Positions 57,801 to 63,800 of a DNA stretch of 64,000 nt are shown here, piece after piece; the stretch's first letter is position 1, and every line of letters starts with the position of its first letter. A program made the translations under genes and the position numbers. Location of the stretch: contig JAMFTG010000164.1 in assembly GCA_023974075.1 (NCBI GenBank), positions 149,501 through 213,500 of the forward strand. The letters run 5' to 3'. Origin of the DNA: Chaenocephalus aceratus. Its lineage: Eukaryota > Chordata > Actinopteri > Perciformes > Channichthyidae. The notes under the pieces are model-generated. The model ran no database searches, was not told where the DNA came from, and was given only the letters and a program-made list of their open reading frames with translations.

Positions 57801-60800
57801 GTTTAGTTCAGCAGGATCATCTCCACAAATTAACACCACTTTATGACTTCTGTCAAATGTGGAGAAAAAAGATCAATTCTGAAATGTTGAGAAAAGTCTT
57901 AATTTAGAGAAAAAAGGAATATTTTTGTTCTGTCTTTATATACATGTACGTACGTGTATGTATGTGCATGTGTACATGTGTGTAGGTATGTATCATATTC
58001 AACATAAAGGGCAGTACCTTGGGGAGGGGCATCCCGTCTTTGTTCATATTCAACATAAAGGGCAGTACCTTGGGGAGGGGCATCCCGTCTTTGTTCATAT
58101 TCAACATAACGGGCAGTACCTTGGGGAGGGGCATCCCGCCTTTGTTCATATTCAACATAAAGGGCAGTACCTTGGGGAGGGGCATCCCGTCTTTGTTCAT
58201 ATTCAACATAAAGGGCAGTACCTTGGGGAGGGGCATCCCGTCTTTGTTCATATTCAACATAAAGGGCAGTACCTTGGGGAGGGGCATCCCGTCTTTGTTC
58301 ATATTCAACATAAAGGGCAGTACCCTTGGGGAGGGGCATCCCGTCTTTGTTCATGTTCAACATAAAGGGCAGTACCTTGGGGAGGGGCATCCCGCCTTTG
58401 TTCATATTCAACATAAAGGGCAGTACCTTGGGGAGGGGCATCCCGTCTTTGTTCATATTCAACATAAAGGGCAGTACCTTGGGGAGGGGCATCCCGTCTT
58501 TGTTCATATTCAACATAAAGGGCAGTACCTTGGGGAGGGGCATCCCGTCTTTGTTCATATTCAACATAAAGGGCAGTACCTTGGGGAGGGGCATCCCGTC
58601 TTTGTTCATATTCAACATAATGGGCAGTACCTTGGGGAGGGGCATCCCGTCTTTGTTCATATTCAACATAAAGGGCAGTACCTTGGGGAGGGGCATCCCG
58701 TCTTTGTTCATATTCAACATAAAGGGCAGTACCCTTGGGGAGGGGCATCCCGCCTTTGTTCATATTCAACATAACGGGCAGTACCTTGGGGAGGGGCATC
58801 CCGTCTTTGTTCATATTCAACATAAAGGGCAGTACCTTGGGGAGGGGCATCCCGTCTTTGTTCATATTCAACATAAAGGGCAGTACCTTGGGGAGGGGCA
58901 TCCCGCCTTTGTTCATATTCAACATAACGGGCAGTACCTTGGGGAGGGGCATCCCGTCTTTGTTCATATTCAACATAAAGGGCAGTACCTTGGGGAGGGG
59001 CATCCCGTCTTTGTTCATATTCAACATAAAGGGCAGTACCTTGGGGAGGGGCATCCCGTCTTTGTTCATGTTCAACATAAAGGGCAGTACCCTTGGGGAG
59101 GGGCATCCCGTCTTTGTTCATATTCAACATAAAGGGCAGTACCTTGGGGAGGGGCATCCCGTCTTTGTTCATATTCAACATAAAGGGCAGTACCTTGGGG
59201 AGGGGCATCCCGTCTTTGTTCATATTCAACATAATGGGCAGTACCCTTGGGGAGGGGCATCCCGCCTTTGTTCATATTCAACATAACGGGCAGTACCTTG
59301 GGGAGGGGCATCCCGCCTTTGTTCATATTCAACATAAAGGGCAGTACCTTGGGGAGGGGCATCCCGCCTTTGTTCATATTCAACATAACGGGCAGTACCT
59401 TGGGGAGGGGCATCCCGCCTTTGTTCATATTCAACATAAAGGGCAGTACCTTGGGGAGGGGCATCCCGTCTTTGTTCATATTCAACATAAAGGGCAGTAC
59501 CTTGGGGAGGGGCATCCCGCCTTTGTTCATATTCAACATAACGGGCAGTACCTTGGGGAGGGGCATCCCGCCTTTGTTCATATTCAACATAAAGGGCAGT
59601 ACCTTGGGGAGGGGCATCCCGTCTTTGTTCATATTCAACATAAAGGGCAGTACCTTGGGGAGGGGCATCCCGTCTTTGTTCATATTCAACATAAAGGGCA
59701 GTACCCTTGGGGAGGGGCATCCCGTCTTTGTTCATGTTCAACATAAAGGGCAGTACCTTGGGGAGGGGCATCCCGCCTTTGTTCATATTCAACATAAAGG
59801 GCAGTACCCTTGGGGAGGGGCATCCCGTCTTTGTTCATATTCAACATAAAGGGCAGTACCTTGGGGAGGGGCATCCCGTCTTTGTTCATATTCAACATAA
59901 AGGGCAGTACCTTGGGGAGGGGCATCCCGTCTTTGTTCATATTCAACATAAAGGGCAGTACCTTGGGGAGGGGCATCCCGTCTTTGTTCATATTCAACAT
60001 AATGGGCAGTACCTTGGGGAGGGGCAATCCCGTCTTTGTTCATATTCAACATAACGGGCAGTACCTTGGGGAGGGGCATCCCGTCTTTGTTCATATTCAA
60101 CATAACGGGCAGTACCTTGGGGAGGGGCATCCCGTCTTTGTTCATATTCAACATAAAGGGCAGTACCTTGGGGAGGGGCATCCCGCCTTTGTTCATATTC
60201 AACATAACGGGCAGTACCTTGGGGAGGGGCATCCCGTCTTTGTTCATATTCAACATAAAGGGCAGTACCTTGGGGAGGGGCATCCCGTCTTTGTTCATAT
60301 TCAACATAACGGGCAGTACCTTGGGGAGGGGCATCCCGTCTTTGTTCATATTCAACATAAAGGGCAGTACCCTTGGGGAGGGGCATCCCGTCTTTGTTCA
60401 TATTCAACATAACGGGCAGTACCTTGGGGAGGGGCATCCCGTCTTTGTTCATATTCAACATAAAGGGCAGTACCCTTGGGGAGGGGCATCCCGTCTTTGT
60501 TCATATTCAACATAACGGGCAGTACCTTGGGGAGGGGCATCCCGTCTTTGTTCATATTCAACATAAAGGGCAGTACCTTGGGGAGGGGCATCCCGTCTTT
60601 GTTCATATTCAACATAAAGGGCAGTACCCTTGGGGAGGGGCATCCCGTCTTTGTTCATATTCAACATAAAGGGCAGTACCCTTGGGGAGGGGCATCCCGT
60701 CTTTGTTCATATTCAACATAAAGGGCAGTACCCTTGGGGAGGGGCATCCCGTCTTTGTTCATATTCAACTTAAAGGGCAGTACCTTGGGGAGGGGCATCC

Positions 60801-63800
60801 CGTCTTTGTTCATATTCAACTTAAAGGGCAGTACCTTGGGGAGGGGCATCCCGTCTTTGTTCATATTCAACATAAAGGGCAGTACCTTGGGGAGGGGCAT
60901 CCCGTCTTTGTTCATATTCAACATAAAGGGCAGTACCTTGGGGAGGGGCATCCCGTCTTTGTTCATATTCAACATAAAGGGCAGTACCTTGGGGAGGGGC
61001 ATCCCGTCTTTGTTCATATTCAACTTAAAGGGCAGTACCCTTGGGGAGGGGCATCCCGCCGCTCCTGCAGTGGAAGGTGACGCCCATGCCCTCCATGATC
61101 CTGTAGTTTTTGACGGGGGTGTCGAAGATGGGCTGCACGGCCTCGTTGGGGTCAGAGGTCACGATCAACTCTCCGTCCTCCGTCACGATCTCTCTGTAGG
61201 TAAACTTCATGATGACGAGCTCGTACTCGTGGATGATCCTCTGCTCGATGGCCGACAGATGGAAGTCCTGCAGACCAGAGGAGGCGGGACAACGTGTATT
61301 AAGACCAGGTCAGCATGCAGACTTCACGATGTGTCTTTACCCCTCAGCCAGGTCAGCATGCAGACTTCACGATGTGTCTTTACCCCTAACCTCAGCCAGG
61401 TCAGCATGCAGACTTCACGATGTGTCTTTACCCCTCACCTCAGCCAGGTCAGCATGCAGAGACTTCACGATGTGTCTTTACCCCTCACCTCAGCATGCAG
61501 AGACTTCACGATGTGTCTTTACCCCTCAGCCAGGTCAGCATGCAGACTTCACGATGTGTCTTTACCCCTCACCTCAGCCAGGTCAGCATGCAGAGACTTC
61601 ACGATGTGTCTTTACCCCTCACCTCAGCCAGGTCAGCATGCAGAGACTTCACGATGTGTCTTTACCCCTCACCTCAGCCAGGTCAGCATGCAGAGACTTC
61701 ACGATGTGTCTTTACCCCTCACCTCAGCCAGGTCAGCATGCAGAGACTTCACGATGTGTCTTTACCCCTTACCTCAGCCAGGTCAGCATGCAGAGACTTC
61801 ACGATGTGTCTTTACCCCTCACCTCAGCATGCAGAGACTTCACGATGTGTCTTTGCCCCTCACCTCAGCATGCAGAGACTTCACGATGTGTCTTTACCCC
61901 TCACCTCAGCATGCAGAGACTTCACGATGTGTCTTTACCCCTCACCTCAGCCAGGTCAGCATGCAGAGACTTCACGATGTGTCTTTACCTACCCTCACCT
62001 CAGCCAGGTCAGCATGCAGAGACTTCACGATGTGTCTTTACCCCTCACCTCAGAGTCAAAGACCAAGCCCCAGCAAGTGCACCTGACCAGTTCTCTTTAT
62101 ACCTCCATGCTATAAATGGGCTCCTACCTGTCCGGTTGTAATGGTTGAGGTCTGCTCCATGGGGGTCGCCCCGGCGGTGGGCTCCTGCACCATGGCTGTC
62201 ACTTCAGTCTTAAAGATGGCTTCCTGTTTCTTCATCAGGGCTTCGTATTCCTCTGTGGAAACAAAGCATTCAGCGTTAGACGACAGCACTTCTTCTTCTC
62301 TAACCTCCTCCTCGCGGCAGGCGTTCCTGACGGACGGGGTTCCTACCTTCCTCCAGCAGGTCTGCAGAGGCAGAAACTTCTCCCAACTGGTTCTTGGCGA
62401 ACACCGAGTATTCTCCGGCGTCATCGGCAAAGGTCATGGAGATCTCCAGCTTACATTCGCCGGTCTCCTTCTTATAGGTCACTTTATATCTGATGGAGGA
62501 AGGGGGTGAGGGGTGTGTTAAAGATAACTCAAAGAGAGCTGCTGCCCCCTACAGGCTGCAGTGTGCATTACAGATACAATGACCACATTTATCTTTGCTT
62601 AGACTTTAAAGAGCAAAGACTGTGATAGGCTTTCAGTCATGGGGATATATCCTGTGTTGTACTTTAGCATTGGTTTGATCAAATCTAAAACCATCACTGT
62701 GTCTTTCCTTTTTAGCGTTACACACCTGGTTCCAGTAGAAGATCGCTCGTCATGCTCTGAGTTAGAAACTCAAAATGCAGGTTTTCACATTACGCAGTGC
62801 AACATGTGGTGAGATATGGTTGAGCATTCCCTGGGTTGTAAACACGGCTCTGGGTTAGTTATATGTTTGCCGGCCCCAGGACATGAGGGCGTGTCCTGAC
62901 CCACCTGTATCCAGTAGTGAGCGGGACGCCGCCCTTCTTCCAGATGACGTGAGGTTTGGGGCTGCCCCCCACCTTGCAGTCGAACACCACGCTGCCCCCC
63001 TCCTCCAGCTTCTGAATGCTGGGTTTCCGGAGGAAGACGGGGAAGGCGTCCGGGACGTCGGCTTTGCTCACCTGAGACTCCGTCTCCTCTGGAGCCTCTT
63101 CTCTTTCTCTGCACACACAAACCTCCTGTTAGCACTAGCCGTAGCACCCGTACGCTCAGTCCAGAGATAGACAACGGTAATCAAGCTGCACCACTTCTAA
63201 ATAGTAAAGAGCATTAAACCGATGTTCCAACTGACTGTCTCTCAGTATTTCCCACTTGATGTCTTACTCTCCCATTTCAAACGTTTTAAAGGGCAACTTT
63301 ACAACCGTCTTTGTACGGTGTGCAAAGCAAACCACTAACAGTGCATCGATACCACAGCGGTGGAGAATATGCAGTTTCCCTCTACAGTCTTTTGGATCGG
63401 TGCCGTTATAAACCTTTGTCATCGGGGACGTGTTAAATAAAGTTGCCTCTCATCACATGTTATGTTAAATGTCACCGACATGTTTGGTAACGCTGTGAAG
63501 GATATAAACTGGTGTTTACGGTGCACTCACGGTTTCTCTGCAGATTCTGCAGCCACCTCCTCTCTGCTCTCGATGTCCTCGGACACTGCAGGACAACCAC
63601 GGGTTAGATAGGAAGAAACACAAAGTAAAATACATTAGTATATAGAAACACAAAGTCAAAACAGAAGAGGAACACCAAGAGTCTTAAAGGTGTTGACATG
63701 TTGAGGGCTATTTGTATTCTTTAATTGACAGTAAATTATAATAATGTCTGTGGCTGACCCTGGACCAGCAGGTAGCAGGAGCTGTTGACGGTGCCCGCCT

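Follow-up and report, generated by a model that had tools for sequence, protein, structure and literature searches.

Donor-containing minisatellites are already described in the human genes IFI6 and ABCA7. The repeat unit of the IFI6 minisatellite is short. In this interferon-induced gene (also named 6-16) the minisatellite supplies multiple splice donors, three mRNA species being reported, and transcripts use the donors of two downstream repeat units (PMC4526556, citing Turri et al. 1995). In intron 18 of ABCA7, the first GT of the VNTR serves as the canonical exon 18 donor, and retention of one unit via the donor of the second unit, seen in human cDNA, is reported to result in a frameshift and a premature stop (PMC5954066). 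The ABCA7 unit starts at GT, is 25 bp long and is present in 23.7 copies in the human reference according to the same report. A further related system is the model of intron gain by tandem duplication of AGGT, in which the AG/GT boundary of every copy gives both an acceptor and a donor (slashes mark exon–intron boundaries throughout); vertebrate ATP2A1 is reported as an instance, as is a 24-bp AGGT repeat found in genes of fission yeast (PMC4974935).

Here we describe a new, large, exon-including case of a donor-containing VNTR, located in the DNA of the icefish Chaenocephalus aceratus (GCA_023974075.1, contig JAMFTG010000164.1, positions 149,501–213,500 of the forward strand). This stretch of 64,000 nt is referred to as the window, and coordinates are window positions unless marked C164, which denotes the contig. 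Similar to IFI6 and ABCA7, the native donor of the exon, termed E6, sits inside the tandem array, the first unit of which starts within E6. Unlike the ABCA7 repeat, the unit includes 19 nt of exon, it is 51 bp long and occurs in 60 copies, and in the deposited sequence unit 1 already breaks the frame. Donor use has been reported for IFI6; in the present array the downstream copies are putative donors. As for the AGGT model, the AG/GT boundary is found in each unit (AAG/GTACTG in 48 of 60, AAGG/GTACTG in 12 of 60), but that model lets a new intron arise inside an exon, while in this locus the donor of an existing intron has been copied into the intron. The preliminary description of the locus knew of no titin array of this kind; a narrow search of titles and abstract openings likewise returned no donor minisatellite in titin, although the kind itself is known from the two human genes.

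Results

The minisatellite at the 3′ end of exon E6

57993..61058, minus strand: minisatellite of 60 units, 51 or 52 bp each (TRF and site spacings)

The array begins at 61058 within E6 and runs on the minus strand to 57993. TRF gave 59.9 copies with 97% matches, and the minus strand contains 60 GTACTG sites, 47 of the 59 spacings being 51 bp and 12 being 52 bp. Each unit combines the 19 nt that end E6 with GTACTG and approximately 25 nt of intron, and the consensus unit is free of stops and encodes 17 residues. The preliminary description was thus right about an exon end amplified with its donor some 60 times and about the stop-free 51-bp unit; its limits (57996..61050) have to be extended by 8 bp at the exon end and by 3 bp at the other.

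A 20-mer spanning the E6 end and the donor matched the window 48 times, compared with 0 matches in 100 dinucleotide shuffles, and a search of the 1.06-Gb assembly returned 48 exact matches, every one of them inside the array. No second copy or haplotig of the unit was returned elsewhere in this one assembly. Searches of the viral_contigs and genome_contigs collections, which hold viral and prokaryote DNA and hence carry little information here, gave no copies either. Thirteen unit types occur interspersed along the array. A higher-order repeat period was rejected, since the top lag identity of 0.31 was equalled by 1695 of 2000 shuffles. Derivation of the ACAAAGA filler from exon E7 (CAAAGACGG at 57690) was likewise discarded: sequence upstream of the array contains a 10-nt match as well, and a 9-nt match is expected by chance with a probability of 0.018 when 600 nt beyond the array are considered and of 0.089 when 2.5 kb are considered on either side.

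Tandem arrays of near-identical units are easily misassembled, and the copy number comes from one assembly. Nevertheless, the interspersed unit types without a higher-order period, the unique flanks, the absence of copies among the matches returned from the rest of the assembly and the presence of 67 merged arrays of at least 250 bp in the contig make it extremely improbable that the E6 array is an assembly artefact. We regard the array as confirmed.

The gene and the exons E6 and E7

The gene carrying the array looks like titin. The I1 Ig domain encoded at 52327–52659 matches the titin I1 structure 1g1c_A (E 2.1e-45), which places the region at the Z-disc end. The two exons bordering the array-bearing intron are the following.

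61040..61267, minus strand: titin exon E6, 228 nt, phase 0-0, first half of an Ig domain (acceptor CTGCAG and open frame)
57463..57701, minus strand: titin exon E7, second half of the Ig domain of E6, starting with IAWFKDG (acceptor TTCCACAG; open frame with E6 ending in AAG)

Joined to each other, E6 and E7 encode one I-set domain that is continuous at PK^IAW, in agreement with the original assignment to a titin Ig exon, and nine exons including these two read open when the E6–E7 join is AAG^ATC. According to the alignment, any insert at this junction would land at PK^IAW within the Ig domain, presumably between its B- and C-strand sequences. Skipping of E6 preserves the frame but takes out half an Ig domain.

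A heuristic genome search with E6 yielded three scored candidates, the titin exon itself and two loci (L025 and L026) that we take to be palladin-like. A second titin copy with E6 was not found among these three, and local tblastn across the 260-kb contig detected a single E6. At both palladin-like loci the exon ends at the residue matching the titin E6 end, with AAG/GTGAGA; in one homologue the next exon starts with GTGTACTGG (VYWFKDG) after CAG, while the next exon of the other was not found. The palladin-like intron is in phase 0, thus AAG/GT is the expected state at the end of E6. In teleosts, two titin genes are reported to share a chromosome (PMC12198301).

As deposited, the exon-adjacent unit has an extra G that breaks the frame

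61039..61039, minus strand: extra G between AAG and GTACTG in the exon-adjacent unit (same variant in 12 of 60 units)
61033..61038, minus strand: first donor copy GTACTG, context AGG/GTACTG, score 2.12

The units had been taken to be in frame with E6. However, unit 1, which is fused to the exon and reads CCCAAG G/GTACTG, belongs to the longer class. Since AAG is followed here by GG and not by GT, splicing at the first usable GT shifts the frame of E7, in which a stop then follows; in-frame use of the unit-1 donor therefore fails in the deposited sequence. Read-through from E6 adds GTAL and ends at a TAA inside unit 1. From none of the 60 GTACTG donors is there an open in-frame join to the usual E7 acceptor at 57701, which contradicts the proposal that downstream donors add multiples of 17 residues. 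Of eight AG sites tested across the 150 bp preceding E7, the usual acceptor among them, a single one (57745; +44 nt) brings the unit-1 donor back into frame on paper, but a purine-rich tract precedes it and this alternative acceptor is not favoured.

The extra G is found in units 1, 7, 8, 9, 12, 14, 25, 27, 36, 39, 46 and 54, and the sole other length change in the array is one T in unit 21. Runs of at least three G, C or A do not vary in length, while substitutions alone account for shortening of the T run. As the G, C and A runs are constant and the extra G recurs in 12 of 60 units, the latter is most readily taken as a genuine unit variant, and it looks like a variant of the array rather than noise. 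Unit 1 itself may nevertheless have been put in the wrong class during assembly.

If the deposited base is faithful, an allele with the 52-bp unit type in the position of the working donor would break titin at E6–E7 or force in-frame skipping of E6. The recurrence of the extra G beside constant homopolymers, a pattern unlike sequencing noise, is consistent with this, as are the length and the phases of E6, which let skipping keep the frame, and the report that N-terminal titin truncations in zebrafish are mild and partly rescued by the product of an internal promoter (PMC4720518). On the other hand, full loss of titin would be costly, the base comes from a single assembly in which a unit of a 97%-identical array is easily misplaced or mispolished, and all titin exons of zebrafish are called constitutive in the same report (PMC4720518). 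Considering both sides, we hold a faithful base with these consequences to be possible but rather doubtful.

The copied donors are weak

Donors were scored with an approximate vertebrate matrix. On this scale AAG/GTACTG (48 of 60 units) reached 4.33 and AGG/GTACTG (12 of 60 units) 2.12, while the 16 other donors assigned by hand in the titin gene, 7 of which are also backed by the nine-exon frame, had a median of 7.43 and a minimum of 4.13. The former motif scores under 15 and the latter under all 16 of these donors. In 6 of the 19 other arrays of at least 250 bp in the window, there are five or more donor-like sites with a score of 4.33 or higher, a cut-off that narrowly drops AAG/GTACTG, whose score rounds to 4.33, so that the E6 array is itself counted as having zero sites. 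Since donor-like motifs are common in arrays and the GTACTG copies are weak, the presence of sixty copies gives no proof of function.

These scores also bear on the idea that downstream donors lengthen the Z-disc Ig domain by multiples of 17 residues. The prevailing 51-bp spacing and the stop-free consensus would suit it, and IFI6 transcripts are reported to use donors of downstream units (PMC4526556). The extra G of unit 1, the TAA met by read-through, the twelve 52-bp spacings, the low donor scores and the position of the insert, which would break the Ig domain at PK^IAW, all argue against such an extension, and we consider it very unlikely. Even less credence is given to splicing of array copies to one another as in the AGGT model. 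An AG/GT does follow a C-rich tract in the repeated unit, and the precedents in ATP2A1 and in the fission yeast repeat are reported (PMC4974935), but the acceptor is AAG, the copied donors score low and the reading would still be broken at unit 1.

Neighbouring arrays and a second copied donor

Tandem arrays cover 27.7% of the window after manual merging of the TRF rows. Across the 260-kb contig, which includes 5,000 N bases, 107 merged arrays make up 33% of the sequence. With minisatellites this abundant, it is unremarkable that one array landed on a donor. The intron preceding E6 also carries an array with donor-like motifs.

61305..62053, minus strand: 50-bp minisatellite in intron E5–E6 with 12 GAG/GTGAGG motifs (TRF and donor scoring)

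It lies approximately 74 bp past the E5 donor, and its motifs score 9.76 on the same approximate matrix. A second donor-copying array of the titin gene was detected outside the window at C164:53975-54449 (L016). Its unit is near 31 bp and copies the exon end TTCATCAG, TCATCAG/GTAGGA, the stretch containing 12 CAG/GTAGG motifs including the native one. The frame hits TAG right after the junction, thus the extra donors there cannot extend the protein. These donors are strong, showing that extra donors in arrays are not always weak.

In the interval reaching from 60 bp inside a homology-block edge to 40 bp outside it, there were 18 arrays at the donor side versus 4 at the acceptor side. These 18 and the E6 array make up the 19 donor-side arrays inspected, two of which, the E6 array and C164:53975-54449, clearly hold an exon end with its donor; as the exon end is inexact for some of the other 17, this is to be read as at least two. 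A preference of minisatellites for the donor side of exons was rejected, because the excess fades within 100 bp (25 versus 16, p 0.21) and within 200 bp (32 versus 28, p 0.70), and arrays merely stop further from acceptors.

Two other arrays of the window are recorded as separate observations. The 15-bp array at 54303–55346 ends approximately 20 nt upstream of an exon acceptor, and the branch site may fall inside it. A coding 21-bp repeat at 1348–1802 is composed of VPEAPKK units and is PEVK-like.

Discussion

The preliminary interpretation is partly supported: the amplified exon end stands, and the protein extension does not on the deposited sequence. We think it probable that the locus is a passive minisatellite that took in a donor, that splicing takes place near unit 1 and that turnover of the array can set a frame-changing unit beside the exon. 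A local tandem duplication spanning the 3′ end of E6 and the start of the intron may have seeded the minisatellite, which could then have expanded, through slippage or unequal exchange, to approximately 60 units, in a gene that was already crowded with arrays. The donor would have been copied because it fell within the duplicated stretch. Judging from the frames and from ABCA7, splicing most likely still proceeds from the exon-adjacent unit or very close by, and the distal copies would act as weak decoys whose use would mostly lead to stop-containing RNA. The deposited sequence would then represent either a frame-changing unit beside the exon or a consensus error mimicking it.

Several lines point to such a passive array, namely the unit found in one place of the assembly, the weak donors, the lack of open joins, the second array and the ABCA7-like geometry. 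Against it, a real extra G means no normal titin across E6–E7, which is hard to square with the other, open exons, except in the case of a heterozygous allele, in-frame skipping of E6 or misassembly of unit 1.

As one of the repeat units supplies the working donor, array turnover can put a frame-changing variant beside the exon. It is conceivable, though we judge it unlikely, that exchange within the 51/52-bp array swaps the exon-side unit and so toggles the frame of titin, a recurrent splice-frame switch in a vital gene. The locus could perhaps be summarized as an unstable splice frame at E6.

The short list of donor-containing VNTRs gains a large exon-including example, with two such arrays in one gene, and their presence in titin suggests that repeat-rich introns can catch donors repeatedly. 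If the extra base is real, the E6 array is a natural case of repeat turnover altering the reading frame at a splice donor, and if unit 1 truly breaks the frame, repeat turnover would be a source of frame changes in titin.
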